Positions 7,422 to 24,720 of a stretch of DNA of 64,000 nt are shown piece after piece (the first letter of the stretch is position 1; each line of letters opens with the position of its first letter). The translations under genes were made by a program, and so were the position numbers. The notes beneath the pieces are model-generated. The model was given only the letters and a program-made list of their open reading frames with translations, made no database searches and was not told the origin of the DNA. Source of the stretch: Chloroflexota bacterium (lineage in GTDB: Bacteria; Chloroflexota; UBA6077; SHYK01); contig DASRDP010000058.1 in the NCBI GenBank assembly GCA_035652535.1, positions 1 through 64,000 on the forward strand. Direction: 5' to 3'.

Positions 7422-7934
7422 GTGTTGCGTAGCGCCCGGCTCGACGAGTTTTCTGCCGCGTCGGACCTGATCCGGGCAGCCTATCGGGAATACGCGGCAC
7501 GTATGCCCGATCGGTGGCAACGCTATCTCGATCGGGCTGCCGACGTGTGGAGCCGCGCCGATGAGGGCGAGCTCCTGGTGGCGGAGCGCGACGGGAGTAT
7601 CGTCGGCTCCGTGACCTTCTACCATCCGGGGCCACAGGCGGCGGCGCAAGGGTGGCCGGAGGGCTGGGCGGGAATCCGCCTCCTCGCCGTTCCGCCTGCC
7701 GAGCGCGGCCGAGGCTTTGGCCGCGCCATCATGGAGGCGACCGTCGAGCGTGCGCGCCAGATCGGCGCCGGAGCGCTCGCGCTGCATACAACCGAGATGA
7801 TGGCCATCGCGCGGGCGATGTACGAGCGAATGGGTTTCGAGCGGGTGCCGGAATACGACTTCCACCCGTCGTCGGGGCGCACGGTTATGGCGTACCGTTT
7901 CTTGCTGAAATCCAACGCAGCGGCGAGTGGGTGA
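7422..7934 (+). CDS. GNAT family N-acetyltransferase
   Basis: A 170-residue single-domain acetyltransferase. It contains the acetyl-CoA-binding motif A, LLAVPPAERGRGFGRAIM (about residues 88-105), and the later LHTTEMMAIARAMYERMGF helix typical of the fold. The substrate is unknown. GTG 7422 is chosen because GGGGAG (7410-7415) lies six bases upstream and the protein then starts at the beginning of the GNAT fold (MLRSARLDEF); the reading frame is open further upstream but that part lacks coding features. Divergent from the VWA gene. Confidence 0.85.
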   Translation: MLRSARLDEFSAASDLIRAAYREYAARMPDRWQRYLDRAADVWSRADEGELLVAERDGSIVGSVTFYHPGPQAAAQGWPEGWAGIRLLAVPPAERGRGFGRAIMEATVERARQIGAGALALHTTEMMAIARAMYERMGFERVPEYDFHPSSGRTVMAYRFLLKSNAAASG

Positions 7935-8008: not shown

Positions 8009-9208
8009 ATGGCGACCCAGGTTGCGACGAAATACAACGTCGGTGGTGTGCTGCTCGATCGACCCTTCAAGGTGCGTCGGTTGGGCCATTTTGGCTTCAA
8101 CGCCACCAACATCGACGCGTGCACCCACTTTTACAGCGATCTCCTCGGGTTCAAGATCTCCGACGAGGGACCGGTCGGTGGCGGCCACTTCATGCGCTTT
8201 GGCACCGACCACCATGCATTCGCGATGTTCAACCGACAGGCGATGGAGGCGCGCGCGGCGGCGTCGGGAGCGCCTCCGGGACGTCCCGACAACACCATCA
8301 ACCAGATCACCTGGCAGACCCAGAGTCTGAGCGAACCGGTGAATGCCGTCGACTACCTGAAGGAGCGGGGTATCCCCATTCAGCGAACCGGGCGGGATGG
8401 AGCGGGATCCAACTGGGCCACCTATTTCCCCGACCCGGACGGGCACATCAATGAGCTGTACTACGGCATCGAGCAGATCGGATGGGACGGCCACTCCAAG
8501 CCCGCGGAATACCGCCGTCCCATTCGCGAAAAGGTGGTGCTACCGGTCAAATCCGAGCTCGAAGAAGTCGAGGAATCGCTGGCGACGACCGGCGTCCCGT
8601 TTACCGCGGGCTATCGCCATGTGGAGACGATGCCGGCGATCTACGACGTATCCGGCGTCATGCTCCCGCGGCCCTTCAAGATTGTGCGCCACGGGCCCGT
8701 CTGCATCTTCGTTGAGGACGTCGATCGTGCTACGGCCTTCTACACCGATGTCGTGGGCCTCGAGGTCACGGAAGATTCTGTGTGGCAGGGGGATCGGTGC
8801 CGCTTCCTCCGCTGCAATACGGAGCACCACTCCATCGGACTGTTTCCGAAGAGCTGGCGCGACCGGCTGGGATTGAGCGCCCACACCTCGTGCATGTCCT
8901 TTGGCGTGCAGGTCGCGAACTATCAGCAGCTCCGCGACGGGGTGCGCTTCCTCCGGGAGCACGGCGTTCGCGTGGAGACGAACCTCATTCCGCCTGTGCT
9001 CTACCCCGGCATCGACTACTGCGCGCACGCGTTCGACCCCGATGGCCACTGCATCCAGATCTACTACTACATGGAGCAGGTCGGCTGGGACGGGACCCCG
9101 CATCCACGGTCGGCACGACGGCAGATCGATCCGACCAACTGGCCGGAGGTTCTGGAGCCGTTGAGCGACACGTACAAGGGCGAGCCGTTTCTCGGTCCGT
9201 GGGGCTGA
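8009..9208 (+). CDS. Two-domain VOC-superfamily protein, extradiol dioxygenase-like
   Basis: A 399-residue protein made of two homologous vicinal-oxygen-chelate domains (about 20-165 and 220-365). Both carry the same signature blocks: RPFK near the start, HH near the fourth strand (TDHHAFAMF, TEHHSIGLF), and a C-terminal DPDGH followed by YY-x-x-EQ-x-GWDG. The overall form is that of type I ring-cleavage dioxygenases. By my alignment, domain 1 offers His27, Gln99 and Glu149 at the metal positions, whereas domain 2 has Pro230, Cys295 and Gln350, so domain 2 looks structural. Substrate unknown; neighbours suggest an aromatic or meta-cleavage substrate. ATG 8009 follows the ribosome-binding site GAGAGGAGGA (7991-8000). 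Confidence 0.82.
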   Translation: MATQVATKYNVGGVLLDRPFKVRRLGHFGFNATNIDACTHFYSDLLGFKISDEGPVGGGHFMRFGTDHHAFAMFNRQAMEARAAASGAPPGRPDNTINQITWQTQSLSEPVNAVDYLKERGIPIQRTGRDGAGSNWATYFPDPDGHINELYYGIEQIGWDGHSKPAEYRRPIREKVVLPVKSELEEVEESLATTGVPFTAGYRHVETMPAIYDVSGVMLPRPFKIVRHGPVCIFVEDVDRATAFYTDVVGLEVTEDSVWQGDRCRFLRCNTEHHSIGLFPKSWRDRLGLSAHTSCMSFGVQVANYQQLRDGVRFLREHGVRVETNLIPPVLYPGIDYCAHAFDPDGHCIQIYYYMEQVGWDGTPHPRSARRQIDPTNWPEVLEPLSDTYKGEPFLGPWG

Positions 9209-9702
9209 GGGCAAGAGCGATCGTCCTGCGGCACGGCGCCGTCATCATCGACGCGCCGGAGCCGCGAAGAGGCCGCGCGACCCCGCTCGCCGGCGTCCGA
9301 TGGCGCGGGAGGAGCGCCGTCGGCCTGGTCGGCACGTTCGTGCTCTTCGCCTCCGTCTGGGGATGCAGCGGGGCGCGCTCAGGTCCGCCTTCGGGGGCAG
9401 GGGACAGCGTCCCGGCAAGCGGTGCATCGTCAGGAGCGGCTCCCGTTTCCAGCCGCATATCGCCGGAGCCGAGCGCCATCGCAGAACCGGCGGCTCGCTG
9501 GCATGTCGCCGCTGCGGTCGTGGCGTCGCACGTCGCAGACCAGATGCGCGCGCGCGACCTCCGCGACGGCGAGGGCGCCGCGCGAGCGGAAGCGGCCATC
9601 CGCGCCGCGTGTCAGTCCCTGTCGGGAACCCTATCGGTTGGGTCTGCCGAAGAACAGGTAGTGCGCGGAGCGTGCGAGCAAGCAGGCGCCGCCATCCCGT
9701 GA
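9199..9702 (+). CDS. Putative small lipoprotein of unknown function
   Basis: An open frame of 167 codons starting at GTG 9199, ten bases inside the end of the preceding gene. A hydrophobic segment (about residues 50-62, GLVGTFVLFASVWG) ends in a lipobox-like VWGC, followed by a Ser/Gly/Pro-rich linker and an Ala-rich helical part containing two further Cys residues. That layout suggests a lipoprotein, but the N-terminal region before the hydrophobic segment is unusually long, so the true start may be further in. No family recognised. Codon use is like the neighbours. It could be a chance frame. Confidence 0.4.
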   Translation: MGLRARAIVLRHGAVIIDAPEPRRGRATPLAGVRWRGRSAVGLVGTFVLFASVWGCSGARSGPPSGAGDSVPASGASSGAAPVSSRISPEPSAIAEPAARWHVAAAVVASHVADQMRARDLRDGEGAARAEAAIRAACQSLSGTLSVGSAEEQVVRGACEQAGAAIP

Positions 9703-9741
9703 CGCAGGCGACCACGCCGGCTGCGCACGATCTGTGGGATT

Positions 9742-9749
9742 GGTATCAT
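9742..9749 (+). promoter_or_regulatory. Candidate extended -10 promoter element
   Basis: TGGTATCAT matches the extended -10 pattern TGnTATAAT with one change in the hexamer (TATCAT, 9744-9749). No -35 is evident, as is common for extended -10 promoters. It lies about 40 bases upstream of the hydratase start at 9789. Confidence 0.4.
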
Positions 9750-9788
9750 CGCTGCGCTTGACCGCCACCACATTCTGAGGAGGTCTCC

Positions 9789-10787
9789 ATGATCGTCGAC
9801 ATCCACGGGCATACGAACGCGCCGCCCTCGCTCTACGCCTACAAGGCCCAGCTCCTTTCCAGCCGCGGGGCGCATGGCAAAGGGAACGCGGGGATCACCG
9901 AAGAGTCGATGGCCAACTCTGTAAAGAACCACCTTGCGAACAACCTGGACAAAGTTGGCACCGACATCCAATTTCTGTCGCCCCGACCCTTCCAGCTGAT
10001 GCATTCCGAGAAGCCGGACAAGATTGTCCACTGGTGGGTCCAGGCGAACAACGACGCCATCGCCATGAGCGTCAAGCTGGCGCCGGACCGCTATCGCGGC
10101 GTGGCGGGTCTGCCGCAGTGCGCGGGTTCACCGATCTCGGACACGTTCGAAGAGATCGACCGATGCGTCAACGACCTGGGGTTCGTCGGGATCATGATCA
10201 ACCCGGACCCCTATGAGGCGGACGGGCATCACGCGCCGGGGATGGGTGATGAGTACTGGTATCCGCTCTACGAGAAGATGGTCCAGCTCGACATCCCAGC
10301 CCTCATCCACTCGGCCGCGTGCAAAGACCCCTGGGACACCTACTCGAACTACTTCATCGCGACGGAGACGCGGTGCATCATCTCGATGGTGTCGAGCGGG
10401 GTGTTCGACAAGTTCCCCAACTTGAAGATCATCGTCGCCCACGGCGGCGGGGCCGTCCCCTACCAGGTGGGACGGTATCGAGCGTTCTTCGGCCGGCACT
10501 TCGAGACCAGCGGCGGCTTCGACGCTCAATTGAAGAAGTTTTATTTCGACACGGTCCTCTACAACCAGGAGGCGCTCGACCTGTTGTTCCGCATCGTGGG
10601 GAGCGACCGCTGCATGTTCGGCACCGAGAATCCGGGCACCGGCTCGTACCGCGATCCCACGTCCGGAAAGATGCTGGACGACCTCAAGCCAGTGATCGAG
10701 AGCATTCCGACCATCGCAGAGAAAGACAAGAAGAACGTCTTCGAAGACGTGGCCAAGAAGGTGTTCCCTCGAGCCAAGCTGCCGTAG
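9789..10787 (+). CDS. Amidohydrolase-superfamily protein, LigJ (4-oxalomesaconate hydratase)-like
   Basis: A 332-residue TIM-barrel protein. The opening MIVDIHGHTNAPPS carries the metal-binding HxH, followed by His in ALIHSA, the metal His of IIVAHGGGAVPYQVGRYR, and FGTENPG near residue 280. The combination of GFVGIMINPDP, WYPLYEKMVQLDIPALIH and a Glu rather than Asp in the FGTE motif resembles LigJ, which hydrates 4-oxalomesaconate in the protocatechuate/gallate 4,5-cleavage pathway, more than it resembles ACMSD decarboxylases. Ribosome-binding site GGAGG lies just before ATG 9789. A ring-cleavage-like protein upstream and a dihydroxyphthalate-decarboxylase-like protein downstream support a role in aromatic breakdown. 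Substrate is inferred, not shown. Confidence 0.82.
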   Translation: MIVDIHGHTNAPPSLYAYKAQLLSSRGAHGKGNAGITEESMANSVKNHLANNLDKVGTDIQFLSPRPFQLMHSEKPDKIVHWWVQANNDAIAMSVKLAPDRYRGVAGLPQCAGSPISDTFEEIDRCVNDLGFVGIMINPDPYEADGHHAPGMGDEYWYPLYEKMVQLDIPALIHSAACKDPWDTYSNYFIATETRCIISMVSSGVFDKFPNLKIIVAHGGGAVPYQVGRYRAFFGRHFETSGGFDAQLKKFYFDTVLYNQEALDLLFRIVGSDRCMFGTENPGTGSYRDPTSGKMLDDLKPVIESIPTIAEKDKKNVFEDVAKKVFPRAKLP

Positions 10788-10848
10788 ACACCGGAAGCAA
10801 TTGTCGATATCCTGAAACAGATCTTGAGAGGTTAGGAGGAGCCCGAAC

Positions 10849-11892
10849 GTGGAAGCCCGAATGTACATTGGGACCGAGCACGGCGTGGTGACGCTCAAGA
10901 GCACCGACGGGCACGCCTGGGACACCGAAAGCGAGGGCTTGCAGTCGTGGGCGGTTCCGTCGGTCGCGGTCGTGCCCGGTTCGCCGAACCGCGTCATCGC
11001 CGGTACCCGCGGCGACGGCGTGTGGGTGAGCGATGACTGCGGCAAGAGCTGGAAGAAGCCCTGCTACGGCAAGCGGGGCCCGGGCAAGGTTCGCGGCGTC
11101 GCCGTCGACGCGAAGAACCCGAACCGGATCTACGCCGGATGCGAGCCGATCGACATCTTCGTGAGCGAGGACCTCGGCGCAAGCTGGGATCGACTCGACT
11201 CGGTCTGGGACATCCCGTTCGTGGCAACCGTGCCCTATCCTGTCGCAACCGTGGAGCCTCACGTCCGTGACATCACCATCGATCCCAACGATCCGAGTGT
11301 GATCTACGCGGCGCTCCAGGTCGGCTACATCCTGAAGAGCACGGACGGCGGCAAGACCTGGCGCCTGCTGAACAACAACTTCGATTGCGACGTGCATACG
11401 ATCGTCGTGGATCCGCAGCACTCGGACAACGTCTACATCGCCACCGGCGGCCACGACTCGCGCTCCGGGCGAGCGCCCGGCCGGGCGCTCTACGCGAGCG
11501 CCGATGGCGGAGAGACCTGGTCGACGACCGCGATGAACTTCACGCAGGAGTACTCGGTCCCGCTGACCATGGACCCACAGGACCCGCGAACCCTCTACGC
11601 GTCGTTGGCCCACGGCCAGCCGAACCAATGGCGACGACCCACCGGCGCCGAGTCCATCATCATTCGGTCGAAGGACGGCGGGCGGAGCTGGGATCGGCTC
11701 CAGCGCGGTCTGGAGGGCGCAGACCACGAGTTTGCGGAAGCGATCGTCATCGACAGCCAGGCGCCGAATTGCGTCTACGCCGTGCAGCGCAGCGGCGATC
11801 TGTACGCGAGCGACGACAAGGGCGAGTCCTGGTCGGCCGTCGACGTCCGCGTGCCCGGCGTCGCGAGCGCGGAGCTGGCCCGCTTCGCCTAG
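10849..11892 (+). CDS. Cytoplasmic Asp-box (BNR) beta-propeller protein
   Basis: A 347-residue protein built of repeats with Asp-box motifs S-x-D-x-G-x-(T/S)-W: SDDCGKSW, SEDLGASW, STDGGKTW, SADGGETW, SKDGGRSW and SDDKGESW, plus a degenerate first copy STDGHAW, consistent with a propeller of about seven blades. Each is preceded by a D-P-x-x-P-x-x-(I/V)-YA-type strand. Sialidases and YCF48-like assembly factors share this architecture, but no sialidase Arg triad or signal peptide is seen, so the protein is probably intracellular and the activity unknown. GTG 10849 has the ribosome-binding site AGGAGGA (10834-10840) eight bases upstream. It follows the hydratase gene by 61 bases and is closed by a strong hairpin at 11919. 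Confidence 0.78.
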   Translation: MEARMYIGTEHGVVTLKSTDGHAWDTESEGLQSWAVPSVAVVPGSPNRVIAGTRGDGVWVSDDCGKSWKKPCYGKRGPGKVRGVAVDAKNPNRIYAGCEPIDIFVSEDLGASWDRLDSVWDIPFVATVPYPVATVEPHVRDITIDPNDPSVIYAALQVGYILKSTDGGKTWRLLNNNFDCDVHTIVVDPQHSDNVYIATGGHDSRSGRAPGRALYASADGGETWSTTAMNFTQEYSVPLTMDPQDPRTLYASLAHGQPNQWRRPTGAESIIIRSKDGGRSWDRLQRGLEGADHEFAEAIVIDSQAPNCVYAVQRSGDLYASDDKGESWSAVDVRVPGVASAELARFA

Positions 11893-11918
11893 CATTCCTG
11901 CGATCCATTGACACTGCG

Positions 11919-11947
11919 CGGGGAGGGGCGGCGGCCGCCCCTCCCCG
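11919..11947 (+). terminator. Strong hairpin after the propeller gene, probable terminator
   Basis: A perfect 13-bp stem: CGGGGAGGGGCGG (11919-11931) and CCGCCCCTCCCCG (11935-11947) with a three-base loop, 27 bases after the stop. Only a short TTCC follows, so termination without a U-tract is an inference from the very stable stem and the position. Confidence 0.5.
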
Positions 11948-12027
11948 TTCCATACCCCGGGCGACGCGATCGCCCCGGTGGCGCGCGACCGTTCGCTTCG
12001 CCCGAGGACCACAATGGCGGGGGCAGG

Positions 12028-13020
12028 ATGGCCAACGTGCAGATCACCATGGCGCTCGGCAACTACGACCGCCACGTTCCCCTGTTCACCGGGGAGGTGC
12101 AGCCGGAGGGGATCGACCTTCACGCCTTCCCCATGACCATCGAGGAGATCTTCTGGCGCCAGGCGCGGTTCCTCGAGTTCGATGCCTCCGAGTTCGCGGG
12201 CGCCGCGTACATCGTCTTGAAGGCCCAGGGTGCGAGCCCGTTCACGGCGGTCCCGGTGTTTCCCTTACGCGCCTTTCGCCACAACGCGGTCTATGTCAAC
12301 GCGCACGCGGGCATCGCGGAGCCTGGTGACCTCAAGGGCAAGCGGATGGGCGCGCCCGAATACGAGATGACCGCGATGTGCTGGATCCGCGATTTTCTCG
12401 CTCGGGACTTCGGCGTGCAGCCCGCCGATATGGAGTGGTTCACGGGAGGACAGCAGAATCCCGGTCGGCGGCCACGCGTGGCCTTCGACCCGCCGCCGGG
12501 TGTCACGATTCACCCGCCCGCGCCGGACCGCACGCTCGACGAGATGCTGGAGCGCGGCGAGATCGATGCTCTCATGTCGGCCAGGCAGCCGCGGCCGTTC
12601 GCCGACGGTTCGCCGAACGTGCGCCGCCTCTTCCCGAGCTACCGCGAGGTCGAGCGCGACTACTTCCGCCGCACGCGGCTCTTCCCCATCATGCACATCC
12701 TCGCCATTCGCAACGACGTTGCGGAGCGGTACCCGTGGGTCCCGATGAACCTCTACGCGGCCATGGTGCGCGCGCGGGACCTCACCGTCGCTCGCCTTCG
12801 CGAGAGCCTGTCAAATGTCACGACGATCCCATCGGCCTTGGCGGCGATCGAGGACGACATCGCGCTCATGGGCGACGACTTCTGGGCGTATGGCGCCGAG
12901 CCGAATCGGCGGCACTACGGCCACCTCGCGCAGATCGTGTTCGAGCAGGGCATCGCGCCGCGGCACGTCGCCTACGAGGAGCTGTACGTTCCGGCGGCGT
13001 ACGACGAGTTCAAGATCTAG
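12028..13020 (+). CDS. 4,5-dihydroxyphthalate decarboxylase-like protein
   Basis: A 330-residue protein with the periplasmic-binding-protein fold but no signal peptide. The N-terminal pattern (ITMALGNYDRHVPL, then G-x-V-x-PEGIDL and EEIFWRQARFLEFDASE) is that of the Pht5 family, in which the enzyme removes one carboxylate from 4,5-dihydroxyphthalate to give protocatechuate. Later blocks DLKGKRMGAPEYEMTAMCWIR and RLFPSYREVERDYFRRT are also family-like. Many relatives with this annotation have unproven substrates. ATG 12028 fits the family N-terminus; upstream GGGGGCAGG may act as ribosome-binding site. Its location next to a LigJ-like hydratase and a ring-cleavage-like protein favours aromatic catabolism. 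Confidence 0.8.
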   Translation: MANVQITMALGNYDRHVPLFTGEVQPEGIDLHAFPMTIEEIFWRQARFLEFDASEFAGAAYIVLKAQGASPFTAVPVFPLRAFRHNAVYVNAHAGIAEPGDLKGKRMGAPEYEMTAMCWIRDFLARDFGVQPADMEWFTGGQQNPGRRPRVAFDPPPGVTIHPPAPDRTLDEMLERGEIDALMSARQPRPFADGSPNVRRLFPSYREVERDYFRRTRLFPIMHILAIRNDVAERYPWVPMNLYAAMVRARDLTVARLRESLSNVTTIPSALAAIEDDIALMGDDFWAYGAEPNRRHYGHLAQIVFEQGIAPRHVAYEELYVPAAYDEFKI

Positions 13021-13030
13021 AGCGCCATGA

Positions 13031-14725
13031 TCAATGGCTGTCGAAGATGGCCTGATATTCCGCGTGCTTGACCCGCGCGGCCTTCAGCTCTGCGTCTGTG
13101 GGATGGGCGGGATCTTTCGCTGGCGGGAAGGCGCCGAAGCGCATCAAGCACGCCATCAAGAGCAACCGCGCCTTCGTGGCGGTCAGGTTGCTGCCTGAGA
13201 TCGTCAGGTCGCGCTCCGCCGGTGGCGCGAACCCCTCCGCGTTTCCCCGACCGACGCGAACCACCGGCATCCCGCACGCGACCGCGCGGTTGAGCGCGGC
13301 CGTCACCGACTCGGTCATCCGCGCAAAGGGTGAGGTTCCCTCAGCGACGAACCCGGCCAGCGGCGCCGTCTGCAGGTTCTGCTCGATCCGGGCGAGGATG
13401 TCGACCTCATCCTCAGCGGCCACGGTCGGCCGCTGAGCGAGGAATCGCGCGGTCTTCTCGATCGTCACGAGGGGAATCGCCGTGGGCAGAAGCTCTCCCT
13501 CGGCGTTCTTGATCTCGACAGGAATCGATTCGATGCGGTCTGCCACCCGTCGCACGCCCGAGACCGAGCGCGGGAGCCGCGTGAGATTGACGGCCGACCG
13601 CCACGTGTGCAGGCGGACGGGACGAAAGGTGAGGACGGGCGGACCGGGCTGGCCGATACTTCCGATGATGCCGCCGTGCCCACCGGTCGCCACATAGCCG
13701 CCGGGCCGCGCATCACCCTTCTGGATCTCCCGCGCGGTAAAAATCTGCTCATCCTGAAGCGCCACCGCACCGACCACGTCGCGGCCGTCGTCGCCGACCC
13801 AGATGCGCGACAGGATGTAGTCCACTGAATCGAGCAGATTGTGGTCGCCGTCGGCAGATAGCGTGCCGTGGGGACGCTGGGCCGCGTTGCCCACGATCGG
13901 GACGGTCGTGTCGATGAGGAGGTTCAGCCAATAGATCGTCTCTTCGACCGACGGGCTCCCCTCCAGCCAAACGGCGCCCGCATAGCTGCCGGACGCGAGC
14001 GCTCGCTGGACCACGTTGGTGAGGCGAGCCAGGTTGACGCCGCTGGGCCCGCGGCCGAGATGCGGAGGCCGATACGCAAAGAAATCCTCGCCCGCGCGCT
14101 CCGGCGCGACGTCGCCGCTGCCGAAATCGGTTCGGAGGGTCTCTGCCAGCCCTTTGGTGTAGCCACCCGAGGGCGCGGCGCGAATGAAGTCGAACTCGGT
14201 CTTCCCGCCAAGGATGTCGGCCGTCCCCTCCTCGCCGATGCCCAGTCGGTCGATCTCTTCCACGATGCGCGATGCATCCGGATAAAACGGCTGGCGGGTG
14301 AGGTGCGCAGGCGCGCCCGGATATGCCCCGTCGCCCTCCCACGCCGAGCCGTCGGCCTGGCGCGCCATGTACGGGAGAAGGTAGAGGCCGTCATCCGGCT
14401 CAAGGGTGACCTCGTACACGGGCCTGTCGTCAGGACTTTGCCGCTCGTGATGGAATTGCCCGTGCTTGTCCACATAGCCGTCCGGCGGCGCGTACAGCTC
14501 AGCGGCGTCGGCCTCCAACGGATGGGCGCTGAACTGCTCGACGTACACCGTGACCGGCGTCGCCAGCCGCTGCGGTCGAAGGGCGTCAAACCGCATCGGC
14601 GACCCGTCCGGGTGGGTGCGGAGCGGTAGACCGTATTTCTTGCGGGCCTTGTTGCTGGTGATGAGGGGAGCGCTGTTCTGAATCGTCGCAGTCGGTCCAG
14701 AGAAGATTGCGATCCTGGGCTTCAC
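13031..14725 (-). CDS. Large asparaginase-fold protein with altered active site
   Basis: A 564-residue protein whose central and C-terminal parts match the L-asparaginase fold: SVEETIYWLNLL, VPIVGNAAQRP, LSADGDHNLLDSV and DEQIFTAREIQKGDA, then CGMPVVRVGRG near residue 500. The N-terminal GPTATI could hold the nucleophile-type Thr12, and Lys336 corresponds to the catalytic Lys. The Thr-Asp pair of the HGTDTMEET motif is replaced by Ser257-Pro258 (EGSPSVEET). About 200 extra residues separate the N-terminal strand from the next conserved block, so the protein is far longer than ordinary asparaginases (about 330). GTG 14725 has the strong site GGAGGTGAG (complement of 14731-14739). Divergent from the binding protein at 14917. 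Asparaginase activity should not be assumed. Confidence 0.72.
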   Translation of the reverse strand: MKPRIAIFSGPTATIQNSAPLITSNKARKKYGLPLRTHPDGSPMRFDALRPQRLATPVTVYVEQFSAHPLEADAAELYAPPDGYVDKHGQFHHERQSPDDRPVYEVTLEPDDGLYLLPYMARQADGSAWEGDGAYPGAPAHLTRQPFYPDASRIVEEIDRLGIGEEGTADILGGKTEFDFIRAAPSGGYTKGLAETLRTDFGSGDVAPERAGEDFFAYRPPHLGRGPSGVNLARLTNVVQRALASGSYAGAVWLEGSPSVEETIYWLNLLIDTTVPIVGNAAQRPHGTLSADGDHNLLDSVDYILSRIWVGDDGRDVVGAVALQDEQIFTAREIQKGDARPGGYVATGGHGGIIGSIGQPGPPVLTFRPVRLHTWRSAVNLTRLPRSVSGVRRVADRIESIPVEIKNAEGELLPTAIPLVTIEKTARFLAQRPTVAAEDEVDILARIEQNLQTAPLAGFVAEGTSPFARMTESVTAALNRAVACGMPVVRVGRGNAEGFAPPAERDLTISGSNLTATKARLLLMACLMRFGAFPPAKDPAHPTDAELKAARVKHAEYQAIFDSH

Positions 14726-14916
14726 GTTGGCTCACCTCCGGTCGCGCTCGAAAAACGATGCGGGTCGTCCGGACGTCGGGATCCGCGGCTCGGACCACGG
14801 ACGTCGCAGATGATACCTGGGAAGCGGCTGAACCTCGGCAAACCGGCGATCCCGTATGATGGCAGCGCAGCGCTCCCCAACTTCGGCGCTGTTGCCCACT
14901 CGATTCGGAGGTATCC

Positions 14917-15879
14917 ATGCTGACCATCCCACGCGTCATTCGTCAACCGGTCGTCATGCGGTCGCGGCTCATGCTCGAGGTAGCGTCGGAGCTGGTTGCG
15001 GCGGATGAGTGGACCGAGAAGCAGGTGCTGATCCATTTTCGTGCGCAGGGCGCAACCGAATGGCCGGTGCGATTCTTTGCGAGCGACGCGCCGAACTCCA
15101 TCGACGCCCTCCTGGCCAACGAAGCGGACGTGGCGATCTGCAATCCGGGGGGCGTGCTCGCGATGGCCGTCCGGGGGGCCGGTCCGTTCAAAGAGCCCGT
15201 TCCCCTTCGAGCGATCATGGTGCTCCCCCAGTTCGACCAGTTCGGATTCGCGGTGATGGAGCGCACCGGCTTGAAGTCCCTGGCGGACCTCCGCGATGCG
15301 CGTTATCCGCTGCGGCTCTCGCTCCGAGGCCAGCGCGACCATTCCGTTCACATGATCGCCAGCCAGGTCCTCGCCGTCTACGGCATCTCCTTCGACGATA
15401 TCGACCGGTGGGGTGGTCAGGTGCGGTACGACAGTGAGTTTCCGGATGGCCCAAATCGGATCGGAGCGGTCGAGCGCGGCGAGGTGGACGCCATCTTCGA
15501 CGAGGCGATGCCGATGTACGCGAACCGTGCCCTCGAGCTGGGGATGAGGTTCCTTCCCGTCGACGAGCCGCAGCTTCAGCAGCTGGAGCGGATGGGCCTC
15601 CAGCGAGTCGCCATCACGCGCGAAGAGTTCCCCGCTCTCAAAGAGGACGTGTGGACGGTCGATTTCAGCGGCTGGCCCGTGTTCACGCTGGCGAGCACCT
15701 CAGACCACATTGTGGAATCGTTTTGCGCGGCCCTGGAGGCGCGGAAGGACCGGATCCCGTGGTACGGCGAGGGACCCATGCGGCTCGACCTGATGTGCAA
15801 GAACACGCGGGAGGGCCCCCTCACCATTCCCCTGCACCCGGCGGCGGAGCGATTCTGGCGGAGCCGCGGGTATCTGTGA
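14917..15879 (+). CDS. TAXI/NMT1-like solute-binding-fold protein without signal peptide
   Basis: A 320-residue two-lobe binding-fold protein. Relevant blocks are NSIDALLANEADVAICNPGG, typical of TAXI/SsuA-like ligand-binding proteins, GLKSLADLRD, and GAVERGEVDAIFDEAMP. Exported family members carry a signal sequence; this one begins MLTIPRVIRQPVVMRS with none, so it is predicted to be cytoplasmic, either as an enzyme-like derivative (as in the dihydroxyphthalate decarboxylase group) or as a ligand sensor. ATG 14917 has GGAGG (14907-14911) upstream. It is divergent from the asparaginase-fold gene and no transporter membrane subunit is nearby. Function unknown. Confidence 0.68.
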   Translation: MLTIPRVIRQPVVMRSRLMLEVASELVAADEWTEKQVLIHFRAQGATEWPVRFFASDAPNSIDALLANEADVAICNPGGVLAMAVRGAGPFKEPVPLRAIMVLPQFDQFGFAVMERTGLKSLADLRDARYPLRLSLRGQRDHSVHMIASQVLAVYGISFDDIDRWGGQVRYDSEFPDGPNRIGAVERGEVDAIFDEAMPMYANRALELGMRFLPVDEPQLQQLERMGLQRVAITREEFPALKEDVWTVDFSGWPVFTLASTSDHIVESFCAALEARKDRIPWYGEGPMRLDLMCKNTREGPLTIPLHPAAERFWRSRGYL

Positions 15880-15924
15880 TCGATCCGGCCGTCGGCGAGC
15901 GCGCGGCTCGCAGCGGGGCCAGGA

Positions 15925-16689
15925 TCAGTGAACGGACAGGAGCACCGGGCCGAGCGTTCCCTCGGCCGTGCCGCACACATCGTACAGCGACACGGTGACG
16001 ACGTTGACGCCTATTTGAAAGAGACTGGTGAGGTCTTCGGGCTGGTCAGGACGATTGCTCTGGCAGTCCTCGTTGAATAAGTGCTCCCATGTCGCGGTGG
16101 TCTTGTCCGGGCGGGCGACACTGAGCGCGATGCGGTCGTCAACAGAGAAGGTTCCGGTGGGTGCAGGATCGCCCGAGATCGTGACCGTTCCGCCCTCGTA
16201 CACGATGTTGAAGGCCTGGGAATAGAATTGCTCGCCGCGCTGGGTGACCCGCTGCTGGATCGTCGGCGCGATCATGGTCACGGATGAGCGAATGGAGGGT
16301 TGCACGCGGAGCTTCCCCGTCGCGGCGGCGCCGGCGGCGGCGATGGTGATGGCGACGATGCTGAGGACGATCACCGTCCTTCGCCGGTCGTTCTGGCTCG
16401 GAGGCTTTGGCGGAGGCAGAGGTTTGGCGAGGTCCGGGTTTCGACTGAGCAGCTGGGTCCGTCGCTCCTGGAGCGCCTGGAGCTGCTCTCGCTTGGACAC
16501 CAACTCGGTGCCGGCGAGCGATGCGCGGAGATGCTTCAGCGACCGGTCGACGCTGGAAGTGGCCGCCCCGGCGACCTCCTGATCGCGTTGGAGGCCGGAG
16601 AGGATCGCAATCTCGTCCTCGAGGTGCCCGATCTGCCGCTGCACCTCGTCATACTCGCGGCGGTCCGGACTCTGGCGGAACAGTGGCAT
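15925..16689 (-). CDS. Single-pass membrane protein with coiled coil, unknown function
   Basis: Predicted 254 residues from ATG 16689. Residues 10-85 are charged and heptad-like (EYDEVQRQIGHLEDEIAIL, then KREQLQALQERRTQLL), followed by a Pro-rich spacer (LAKPLPPPKPP), one membrane segment at about 105-124 (TVIVLSIVAITIAAAGAAAT), and an extracytoplasmic C-terminal beta-rich domain of about 125 residues with a Cys pair (NEDCQSN, YDVCGTAEG) that may form a disulfide. The order implies a cytoplasmic N-terminal coiled coil and an exposed C-terminus. The frame is open for another 98 codons upstream but that part looks non-coding. A GTG nine bases upstream of the ATG is an alternative. No family recognised. 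Confidence 0.6.
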   Translation of the reverse strand: MPLFRQSPDRREYDEVQRQIGHLEDEIAILSGLQRDQEVAGAATSSVDRSLKHLRASLAGTELVSKREQLQALQERRTQLLSRNPDLAKPLPPPKPPSQNDRRRTVIVLSIVAITIAAAGAAATGKLRVQPSIRSSVTMIAPTIQQRVTQRGEQFYSQAFNIVYEGGTVTISGDPAPTGTFSVDDRIALSVARPDKTTATWEHLFNEDCQSNRPDQPEDLTSLFQIGVNVVTVSLYDVCGTAEGTLGPVLLSVH

Positions 16690-16928
16690 GAGCGTCACAA
16701 CTCCGTCGAAGCACTCGATCGCGTTGGCCGGCCTCGTCCCTATCCGGCTGAGGGTCAGTTTGTGGTTCTCGCGGTTCGCGCGGACACTGTAGACGGATTC
16801 CCGATCAAGGGTCAAGCGACCAACGCCAGGAACGCCAGTCGTTGGCCGACACTGTACGAGGAAGGCAGGCACCACCGGCGCCCTGAGAGGCGTTCGAGAT
16901 CGAACAGTGATCGCGGAGGATGACGGGG

Positions 16929-17594
16929 ATGGACCTCGCCGGCATCGAAGTGCTTGGATCCCTGGAGGAACGAGTTGCGCCACGCCACACGGCGCTTCTC
17001 ATCGTTGATATGCAGAACGACTACTGCTCGCCGGGCGGGGCAAGCGACCGAAATGGGCGCGACCTGTCGCAGATTGAGGCGATAGTGCCGTCGATGGCCC
17101 GGCTGATCGACTCGGCGCGACAAGCCACGGTTCCGATCTTCTTCACAAAGTACACGCTGGGGCCCGGCGGCGCTGGCCTCTCCGGGCCGGAGATTCTGCG
17201 GAGAGGGGCCAACTTCAAGGGAGTCGAGAGCACCATCAAGGGCACATGGGGACACGATCTCATCTCCGGGCTCCCGCACGACGTGGCGACAGACGTGGTC
17301 ATCGAAAAGCGACGCCTTTCGTCTTTTACGGGCACCGACCTCGACCTCCTCCTTTCCGCCCGCGGCGTCAAGACGATCGTGATCGGCGGCGTGGTCACGC
17401 AGGGATGTGTGGAATCCACCGCGCGGGACGCCGCCAACTACGACTACTACGTCGCGGTGGTCGAGGACTGCGTCGCGTCGACGGATCCCGAGGCCCATGC
17501 GACGGCGCTGCGGTCGATGGCGACGGTCCTTCGCTACCCGGAGGCCGTGACGACGAGCGACCGCATTCGGGCGATCTGGTCGTCGCGGCGATGA
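16929..17594 (+). CDS. Isochorismatase-family cysteine hydrolase
   Basis: A 221-residue alpha/beta hydrolase of the isochorismatase/nicotinamidase group with the triad Asp27 (LLIVDMQNDY), Lys127 (VIEKRRLSSF) and Cys160 (GGVVTQGCVESTARDA), the last preceded by the usual cis-peptide Val-Thr. Members hydrolyse amides, carbamates or vinyl ethers; the sequence resembles biuret or N-carbamoyl amidohydrolase types rather than EntB, but the substrate cannot be fixed. ATG 16929 is chosen because GGAGG (16915-16919) lies at normal distance; the in-frame ATG 16920 touches that site. It stands 129 bases before the FAH-family gene. Confidence 0.87.
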   Translation: MDLAGIEVLGSLEERVAPRHTALLIVDMQNDYCSPGGASDRNGRDLSQIEAIVPSMARLIDSARQATVPIFFTKYTLGPGGAGLSGPEILRRGANFKGVESTIKGTWGHDLISGLPHDVATDVVIEKRRLSSFTGTDLDLLLSARGVKTIVIGGVVTQGCVESTARDAANYDYYVAVVEDCVASTDPEAHATALRSMATVLRYPEAVTTSDRIRAIWSSRR

Positions 17595-17639
17595 ATACAG
17601 ACTCGCTCTGTTCCCCATCGCGCCGGGCGCCCATGCGAT

Positions 17640-17668
17640 TTGCGCTCCAGCCGTCAGCGGCGTACACT
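17640..17668 (+). promoter_or_regulatory. Weak candidate promoter for the FAH-family gene
   Basis: TTGCGC (17640-17645) and TACACT (17663-17668) with 17-base spacing, followed by a 55-base leader to ATG 17724. Both boxes are imperfect, so this is a tentative call. Confidence 0.3.
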
Positions 17669-17723
17669 GGCGAGCCGGTGGTGCTGAACCCCATGCGCCG
17701 AGATCGGCGCACCTGGAGGATGA

Positions 17724-18617
17724 ATGAAGCTCCTGCTTTTCGATGACTATCGACCCGGCGTGCTCAAGGGCGACCGCGTGGTCGACATCTCCAGAGCGCT
17801 GCCGCAGGTCGATCGCCAAGGTCTCCCGCCCGTTCTTTGCGCCGAGGGACTGATGGAGACGCTGATCGACCGTTTCGGTGAGCTGCGCCCGAAGATCGAG
17901 CAGATCGTCGCGTCGGAGGGAGGCGTGCCCATCAGCTCGGTTCGCATTCGCCCGCCTCTACCCCGGCCGAGCAACGCCCTGTGCGCCTTCTCCAACTACC
18001 AGGACCGACCGATGGCGACGGCGTCGCCCCTCGACTTCTTCCACAAGAGCGCCACCAGCATCGTCGGAGACGGCGATACGGTGGAGCTGCCCGACATCCC
18101 GGAGGCGGAGGTCTTCCACCCCGAGCCGGAGCTGGCGTACGTAATCGGCCGCGCCGCGAAGAAGGTCCGCGAGGCGGACGCGCTCAACTACGTGTTCGGC
18201 TATCTGAACTTCGTCGACATCTCCGCGCGTGGCATCCCGAACCGGCGAACGACGTTCTTTCACAAGGCGCTCGAGACGTGGGCGCCGATGGGACCGGTCA
18301 TCACGACCGCGGACGAGATCCCGGACCCGCAGCACGTCCAGGTCCGCCTCTGGCTCAACGGGGACCTCAAACAGGACTACAGCACTTCGGCCATGACCTA
18401 TCCGATCCGCGCCCAGATCGAGTGGCTCAGCCAGTACCTCACCCTCAAGCCCGGCGACGTGATCTCGTGCGGCGTGCACCACGTGGGCCTCTCACCCATC
18501 AACGACGGGGATCGGGTGGAGATGGAGTGCGAGGGGATGGAGCGCCTGCACTTCACGATCCGGTCGTACGGGCCGCGCAAGACGGCGCACTGGCGGCCGC
18601 CCGGCGTTCCGGGTTGA
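17724..18617 (+). CDS. Fumarylacetoacetate hydrolase (FAH) family protein
   Basis: A 297-residue FAH-fold enzyme. Metal-binding carboxylates are visible in VFHPEPELAYVIGR (two Glu) and NFVDISARG (Asp), followed by the FFHKALETWAPMGP substrate-loop block and the C-terminal LKPGDVISCG motif. The family hydrolyses or decarboxylates C-C bonds in diketo acids and 2-oxo-hex-enedioates, steps that follow ring cleavage. It closes the run of catabolic genes on this strand, which supports a late step in ring-fission product breakdown; the substrate is not determined. GGAGG precedes ATG 17724. Ends ten bases from the end of the convergent glycosyltransferase gene. Confidence 0.88.
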   Translation: MKLLLFDDYRPGVLKGDRVVDISRALPQVDRQGLPPVLCAEGLMETLIDRFGELRPKIEQIVASEGGVPISSVRIRPPLPRPSNALCAFSNYQDRPMATASPLDFFHKSATSIVGDGDTVELPDIPEAEVFHPEPELAYVIGRAAKKVREADALNYVFGYLNFVDISARGIPNRRTTFFHKALETWAPMGPVITTADEIPDPQHVQVRLWLNGDLKQDYSTSAMTYPIRAQIEWLSQYLTLKPGDVISCGVHHVGLSPINDGDRVEMECEGMERLHFTIRSYGPRKTAHWRPPGVPG

Positions 18618-18626
18618 GCCGAGGCC

Positions 18627-19358
18627 CTACTCTCGGTACGCGGGAGCTGGCGCGGCGCGCGGCGCCTCACGCCGCGCCAGAATGCCCAGCTTCAGCCCCC
18701 AGATCGTGGGCTGGTCGTGGATCATGCGCCGTACGAGGCGTCCCAGCGATTCGCCGTGGGAGTGGAACACTGCTGCCGCCGGCTCGTAGCAGACGACCCA
18801 GCCGTGGCGCTCGATCCAGTCGGCCCACGCAAGGTCTTCCGCCCCGGGCAGTCGCTCGTCGAAGGGGTGTTTGACTGCGAGGTGGCGCCGAAACGCGCCA
18901 TTCGCGTTCGAGAACATCATGTCCCGATGCTGCCGTCGCGGCCGGTCGCTCGTCACGCCCGAAAGGCGCATGCCGAAGAGCTCGAGCCGCGTGGCGTTCT
19001 CCCGAGGGACGTGTCGCCCGTAGACCGCGCCGACCGACGGATCCGCGAAGGGCTCCAACAGCTTGGCGAGCCACGCGTCGGTGGTGGGCAGCGCGTGGGC
19101 GCTCAATGCCACGACGAACTCACCCCGCGCCGCGGCGATGCCGATGTTCAGCGCACGGCCGTAGGTGAATGACGCGGCAGGGATCTCAATGATCCTTGTG
19201 CCGTACTGGCGGGCGATCTCCACCGTTCCATCGCTCGAGCCCGAGTCCACCACGATGGTCTCGAATTGGGGAACCGATGTCTGTCGTTGAATTCGCTCGA
19301 GTGTGTCGCCAATGTCCCGGGCCTCGTTCTTCGCCCGAATGACGATCGAGGCGTTCAC
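18627..19358 (-). CDS. Family 2 glycosyltransferase
   Basis: A GT-A fold glycosyltransferase of about 243 residues. It opens with ASIVIRAKNEARDIGDTLE, has the nucleotide-binding IVVDSGSSDGT, YGRALNIGIAAARGEFVVAL and the acceptor-side EDLAWADW motif (ED equivalent). It probably transfers a sugar from an NDP-sugar to a lipid, polysaccharide or protein acceptor on the cytoplasmic face of the membrane; donor unknown. The GTG at 19358 is favoured because GGAG lies seven bases upstream; ATG 19364, two codons earlier, is only one base from that site. Confidence 0.85.
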   Translation of the reverse strand: MNASIVIRAKNEARDIGDTLERIQRQTSVPQFETIVVDSGSSDGTVEIARQYGTRIIEIPAASFTYGRALNIGIAAARGEFVVALSAHALPTTDAWLAKLLEPFADPSVGAVYGRHVPRENATRLELFGMRLSGVTSDRPRRQHRDMMFSNANGAFRRHLAVKHPFDERLPGAEDLAWADWIERHGWVVCYEPAAAVFHSHGESLGRLVRRMIHDQPTIWGLKLGILARREAPRAAPAPAYRE

Positions 19359-19502
19359 ACACATGCTCCGGTCGTGGAATTGAACACGGAGGATCTTCGA
19401 GGAGGTGGGCGGAGGTCCAACGCATTTTAGACGGCACGTGGCTCGGGGGCAACGTGACCGGAAGTCACAGGGCTCCGTGGCCGGTGAGATGACGGATCGC
19501 GC

Positions 19503-22029: not shown

Positions 22030-24720
<2,691 letters not shown>

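Follow-up and report, generated by a model that had tools for sequence, protein, structure and literature searches.

Substrates have been assigned to few enzymes of uncultured Chloroflexota, bacteria that are believed to process recalcitrant carbon from plants. One described member of the phylum, SAR202-VII-2, carries 25 ring-cleaving dioxygenases and 30 ring-demethylating monooxygenases, and its metal-dependent hydrolases lie in clusters together with ring-modifying enzymes, although no reference pathway is complete (PMC6123686). In the ipp cluster, an extradiol (VOC-type) dioxygenase, IppB, adjoins a gene of the fumarylacetoacetate-hydrolase (FAH) family (PMC12442392). Here we analysed a 64,000-nucleotide stretch of a Chloroflexota genome (assembly GCA_035652535.1, contig DASRDP010000058.1; hereafter the window, contig C58 of host genome G000), and in particular its segment 8009-18617, which encodes on the plus strand a VOC protein, an amidohydrolase of the LigY/LigJ family, a beta-propeller, a relative of the 4,5-dihydroxyphthalate decarboxylase Pht5, a second binding-fold protein, an isochorismatase-type hydrolase and an FAH-family protein. 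In our reading, held with moderate confidence, modules for aromatic meta-cleavage have come together in this segment as a lineage-specific mosaic beside a core block in a soil Chloroflexota. A role in aromatic catabolism is probable; its substrate, the order of the steps and the joint action of the genes are inferred.

Results

Genes were checked by open reading frame (ORF) intactness, codon bias and matches in Pfam, NCBIfam and the PDB. All eight genes named in an initial annotation of the segment proved to be intact ORFs with coding-like codon bias and matches in these databases (Table 1), and AGGAGG ribosome-binding-like sequences precede most of the starts. That annotation held that aromatic catabolic steps are encoded here, a claim that is well supported because homologues of the amidohydrolase, Pht5-like, VOC and FAH proteins sit in ring-oxidation or ring-cleavage clusters of other bacteria and because the host genome is rich in such enzymes. 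This genome (4.45 Mb in 168 contigs; completeness 98.3, contamination 4.56) carries 75 Amidohydro_2 domains, 19 LigB-family matches, ten Pht5-like copies at E<=1e-40, three RraA-like genes outside the segment and 104 matches to LigXa_C, a Rieske O-demethylase domain (about 98 genes after pieces were merged by eye), with none of the latter in 14 control genomes.

The set was sought gene by gene in about 100 relatives (60 relatives for some genes). No genome among the roughly 100 carries the whole set, so that the "island" of the initial annotation does not hold as a conserved unit, an outcome which that annotation had itself named as refuting, though pairs of its genes recur. The LigY-like and Pht5-like genes are directly adjacent on one strand in two distant genera (G009 and G006), against about 0.03 such adjacencies expected over the genomes searched, as roughly estimated by hand from the copy numbers. 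The FAH gene adjoins a Pht5-like gene in G001 and G002, the propeller gene lies 1.4 kb from a Pht5-like gene in G040, and a pairing of LigB-type and Pht5-like genes recurs on another contig of the host genome (C77). These recurring pairs support functional coupling of the families, while the particular collection found in the window is not conserved.

To the right of the segment, 18627-41276 (GT2, GNAT, AlaS, RuvX onward) runs collinear with G002:C144 and G001:C208, both from genomes of the same family, from which we take the contig to be genuine and 18.6 kb to be the edge of the core block; contamination of the contig is unlikely on the same grounds. In G002, the closest syntenic relative, everything between the amidohydrolase and GT2 is swapped, with a core penicillin-binding protein and others in place of the propeller-to-FAH genes. 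Such replacement fits the main competing explanation, namely that unrelated acquired or duplicated enzymes, each partnered elsewhere, accumulated by chance at a variable site and that no pathway is encoded in the segment; the abundance of Amidohydro_2, LigXa_C, LigB and Pht5-like copies in 4.45 Mb, the lack of a conserved set among relatives and the mixed strands fit it as well. Chance accumulation would not lead one to expect the LigY-like and Pht5-like adjacency twice in distant genera, the FAH–Pht5 pair twice or a VOC–FAH pair in three host genera, and we regard it as a real possibility that falls short of being probable.

The amidohydrolase had been called a LigJ-like hydratase, which is right as to the family and wrong as to the side of it. 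It scored 337 bits against LigY and 202 bits against LigJ in the PDB (48% identity over 322 residues versus 34%), and in a 36-sequence tree the LigY side (25 rows) and the LigJ side (11 rows) split at 100/100 with the window protein in the former. Aligned to LigY, it keeps the metal ligands of the amidohydrolase superfamily (H6 and H8 of DIHGH, the His of IHSA and the Glu of GTEN), and it reads SPRPF, FDTVLYNQ and TENPGTG where the LigJ side has SPRAS, FDTCVYHQ and SEMVGAV. LigY of strain SYK-6 clusters with Aminobacter and Acidobacteria rows (96/91), the window protein lying in another subclade, and the latter is thus LigY-like in action at most and not an orthologue. On Bradyrhizobium, Rhodococcus and Aminobacter plasmids, LigY-side relatives adjoin PF02900 (LigB-type) dioxygenases and RraA-family aldolases; the copy on pNL1 has RraA and ring-hydroxylating dioxygenase genes as neighbours, and a MetE-like gene and a LigB-type gene come after the copy in two acidobacterial cases. 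This neighbour pattern is what would be expected of enzymes handling ring-fission products. The nearest named relatives come from soil and other Chloroflexota metagenome-assembled genomes, with a 54% identical homologue in the SAR202-VII-2 genome (L014).

Orthologues with 84-86% amino-acid identity to the window amidohydrolase occur in four genomes of two families (G001, G002, G005 and G011), whereas AlaS (22030-24720) is just 40-46% identical to its copies in the same four genomes and the remaining core-block genes are 40-83% identical to those of G002 or G001. The high identity might suggest recent transfer between families, which is ruled out by saturation of the four-fold degenerate sites (0.36-0.42 identical versus 0.34-0.40 expected from composition); the protein is thus under strong purifying selection. 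The constraint is unusually strong for a catabolic-type enzyme. As a separate observation, AlaS is 40-46% identical to every relative searched, same family included, despite its syntenic position. The amidohydrolase might be a strongly constrained near-core enzyme of the clade with a conserved role of its own and merely incidental neighbours, as its identity relative to AlaS, the differing contexts of its orthologues and its similar distance to GT2 in G002 (8.0 kb, versus 7.8 kb in the window, the sole shared context) would allow. Its patchy presence (10/101 genomes at E<=1e-60, with no close orthologue found in G015, congeneric with G005 and G011) and the catabolic role of the family elsewhere argue otherwise, making this reading unlikely.

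The Pht5-like protein is 35% identical to PDB 9jp7, a 4,5-dihydroxyphthalate decarboxylase, and retains R44, E55, R81, H85, R121, D180, H223 and R294, which are invariant in 28 family members; the family tree is poorly resolved and places the window copy on a long branch. Its annotation as dihydroxyphthalate-decarboxylase-like is upheld as regards family membership and not as regards phthalate-pathway partners, as neither a linked Rieske dioxygenase nor a Gfo/Idh dihydrodiol dehydrogenase (the Pht3/Pht4 partners) was found among the genes of 8009-18617. Copies from Novosphingobium KA1, Caballeronia and Agrobacterium (L200, L201, L202), 41-44% identical to that of the window, lie beside Gfo/Idh/MocA and Rieske genes. 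Elsewhere in the host genome, Pht5-like copies adjoin a LigB-type dioxygenase (C77, above), LigXa-type Rieske genes (C25, C65) or another Rieske oxygenase (C92). On C65 (L117:7217-10817), a LigXa-type Rieske oxygenase, a Gfo/Idh/MocA dehydrogenase and a Pht5-like gene stand in a row on one strand, arranged as in an upper pathway of the phthalate type, for which C65 would be a better candidate than the window.

The initial annotation had pointed to a route in which phthalate is converted via Pht5 to protocatechuate, followed by 4,5-cleavage and hydration of 4-oxalomesaconate by LigJ, while remarking that LigC, LigI and LigK equivalents were missing. Profile scans agreed that these three are absent from the segment, LigC and LigI having been sought within the segment only. 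The Pht5-family membership of the 12028-13020 protein and the position of LigY and LigJ as sister groups in one family are in keeping with such a route. The amidohydrolase is firmly on the LigY side, the segment lacks LigAB as well, its Pht5-like gene has no Pht3/Pht4 partner beside it of the kind seen on C65 and, as described below, the VOC protein is without the His-His-Glu triad, so that the route is highly improbable and phthalate as substrate is unsupported.

The longest version of the VOC ORF begins at 7652, and the ATG at 8009 has GAGGAGG upstream. A structural model of medium confidence (pLDDT 67) gave BphC, XylE and HPCD-type dioxygenases as best Foldseek matches (E about 1e-15) and predicts the two-domain VOC fold of type I extradiol dioxygenases. 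The label "ring-cleavage-like" was therefore apt for the fold, the canonical triad being absent: when the N-terminal domain is aligned to the catalytic domain of known family members in the PDB, His27, Gln99 and Glu149 occupy the three metal-ligand positions, with Gln99, constant in 10 family members, replacing the second His of the 2-His-1-Glu triad. Across 7 proteins from Chloroflexota and 3 homologues carried on plasmids, there is no variation at His27, His68, His69, Asn98, Gln99, Asp130, Tyr139 and Glu149; the C-terminal domain carries Pro230 and Gln/Glu350 instead, and its site is lost. Asp130 stands at the position of the active-site His of extradiol enzymes (H246 of XylE). Given these conserved residues, the His-Gln-Glu family is in all likelihood metal-binding.

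Full-length homologues of the VOC protein (44-50% identical) directly adjoin an FAH-family gene in all plasmid records (Sphingobium CFD-1/CFD-2, Leisingera M527 and Rhodococcus koreensis). It is conceivable, if rather doubtful, that these proteins of ~400 residues make up an uncharacterised enzyme family of Chloroflexota, Alphaproteobacteria and Actinomycetota, whose N-terminal His-Gln-Glu site would carry out an FAH-coupled reaction of ring cleavage or on a ring-fission product, and which in the segment would belong, along with the LigY-type hydrolase and the decarboxylase of Pht5 type, to a new pathway for aromatic acids. On the Sphingobium CFD-1/CFD-2 plasmids (L192, L193), a VOC–FAH–alpha/beta hydrolase–enoyl-CoA hydratase–CoA transferase module has IS6100 copies nearby, which suggests that the family travels on mobile elements.

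Among the other genes of the segment, the asparaginase-like gene and the 15925-16983 ORF break the run from the minus strand, so that the segment is not one operon; promoter and terminator scans gave nothing useful. The annotated asparaginase fold stands, while the catalytic Thr-Asp pair is lost, the PDB alignment giving EGSPS where HGTDT is expected; orthologues in G001 and G009 (64-67%) lie in differing contexts. No family match to the 15925-16983 ORF was obtained in Pfam and NCBIfam scans. By eye, neither 12028-13020 nor 14917-15879 has a hydrophobic N-terminus indicative of a signal peptide from any in-frame start, and for both binding-fold proteins a cytoplasmic role, as enzyme or sensor, is therefore more likely than one in a transporter; the TRAP_TAXI match of the second falls below the family cut-off. 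The isochorismatase-type protein has the Asp-Lys-Cys catalytic residues (VDMQND, IEKRR, QGCVES), and the propeller has relatives at 55-66% in G001, G002 and G040. Elsewhere in the host genome, a denser catabolic contig, C134 (L089, L090), carries Pht5-like and LigB-family genes, several Rieske genes of LigXa type, a propeller gene, a luciferase-like gene and two amidohydrolases, one of which is a second LigY-side copy (48%).

Table 1. Features of the segment and of the adjoining edge of the core block, in window coordinates.
Feature	Position	Strand	Matches and remarks
Two-domain VOC protein, extradiol-dioxygenase fold, His27/Gln99/Glu149 N-terminal site	8009..9208	+	Pfam Glyoxalase 2.6e-24
Amidohydrolase, LigY side of LigY/LigJ family, putative meta-cleavage-product C-C hydrolase	9789..10787	+	PDB LigY E 1e-99, LigJ 1.6e-58
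Asp-box (BNR/Vps10-type) beta-propeller, no signal peptide	10849..11892	+	Pfam Sortilin-Vps10 4e-25, BNR
Pht5-like (4,5-dihydroxyphthalate-decarboxylase family), periplasmic-binding fold, no signal peptide	12028..13020	+	PDB 9jp7 E 4.5e-70
Asparaginase-fold protein without catalytic Thr-Asp pair	13031..14725	-	Pfam Asparaginase 2.9e-11
NMT1/TAXI-like binding-fold protein, no signal peptide	14917..15879	+	Pfam NMT1_3 7e-10, NCBIfam TRAP_TAXI 1.5e-12
Opposite-strand ORF, probably membrane protein starting ~16700	15925..16983	-	Coding-like composition, TVIVLSIVAITIAAAGAAA segment
Isochorismatase-type cysteine hydrolase	16920..17594	+	Pfam 7.5e-46; RutB/biuret hydrolase relatives
FAH family, HpaG/maleylpyruvate hydrolase-like	17724..18617	+	Pfam 2.3e-45; PDB 1gtt/6jvv
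GT2 glycosyltransferase, first gene of core block (GT2-GNAT-AlaS-RuvX...), right edge of variable region	18627..19364	-	67-69% to G002

Discussion

If the segment is a mosaic of meta-cleavage modules, its plus-strand genes would encode part of a meta-cleavage route that acts on a carboxylated aromatic, probably lignin- or humic-derived. The Pht5-like protein would strip a ring carboxylate, and ring opening would fall to the VOC enzyme or to a LigB-type dioxygenase encoded elsewhere. The ring-fission product would be hydrolysed at a C-C bond by the LigY-type amidohydrolase, and its smaller acyl part would go to the FAH protein; an amide may be taken off by the isochorismatase-type enzyme. In favour of this proposal are the LigY-side placement of the amidohydrolase, the dioxygenase neighbours of its relatives, the recurring gene pairs, the parallel with SAR202-VII-2 and the lack of signal peptides in both binding-fold proteins. 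Several observations weigh against it. The whole set was not met in any relative searched, two minus-strand genes interrupt the run, and the segment holds no diol-making oxygenase. The close orthologues of the amidohydrolase stand in four unrelated neighbourhoods, so that the enzyme need not work with its neighbours in the window. The window FAH protein is just 33% identical to the plasmid FAHs, its gene is separated from the VOC gene by 8.5 kb and other genes, and the VOC metal site is non-canonical.

Neighbourhoods in these genomes are shuffled modules, and pathway inference based on operons therefore fails; pairwise adjacency across genomes is a better guide. The locus offers testable enzymes: a LigY-side hydrolase that is far better conserved than a tRNA synthetase, a decarboxylase of Pht5 type that has left the operon in which it is usually found, and VOC proteins that depart from the textbook metal triad. 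For work at the bench, the VOC proteins with the His-Gln-Glu site and the LigY-side hydrolase, with its unusual degree of constraint, are the most deserving.

Compared with described enzymes, the amidohydrolase shares with LigY, the hydrolase of the DDVA meta-cleavage compound in Sphingobium SYK-6 (PDB 6e6i, 5vn5), the metal-ligand motifs and SPRPFQ, NPDPYE, FDTVLY and GxExPGxG, but belongs to another well-supported subclade, and no LigZ-type dioxygenase adjoins its gene. The window Pht5-like protein is 35-41% identical to Pht5 (PDB 9jp7; Novosphingobium KA1, Caballeronia), has its family-invariant polar residues and, like it, no signal peptide, whereas the Novosphingobium KA1 and Caballeronia copies have Rieske and Gfo/Idh neighbours and the window copy, long-branched and one of ten paralogues in its genome, does not. 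With BphC, XylE and HPCD the VOC protein has in common the fold, the two VOC domains and the first His, the Glu and the Tyr of the site; it differs in having Gln for the second His, Asp for the active-site His and its site in the N-terminal domain. The VOC–FAH partnership of its plasmid homologues is also that of the ipp cluster, in which IppB, unlike the window protein, retains the His-His-Glu triad (PMC12442392). At the level of the genome, the closest parallel is with the SAR202-VII-2 clusters, of the same phylum, which reflect similar though smaller enzyme expansions and likewise group ring-cleaving, demethylating and decarboxylating enzymes with metal-dependent hydrolases; the window host is a soil relative with more LigXa-type Rieske genes (~98 versus 30 ring-demethylating monooxygenases) and another combination of genes (PMC6123686).

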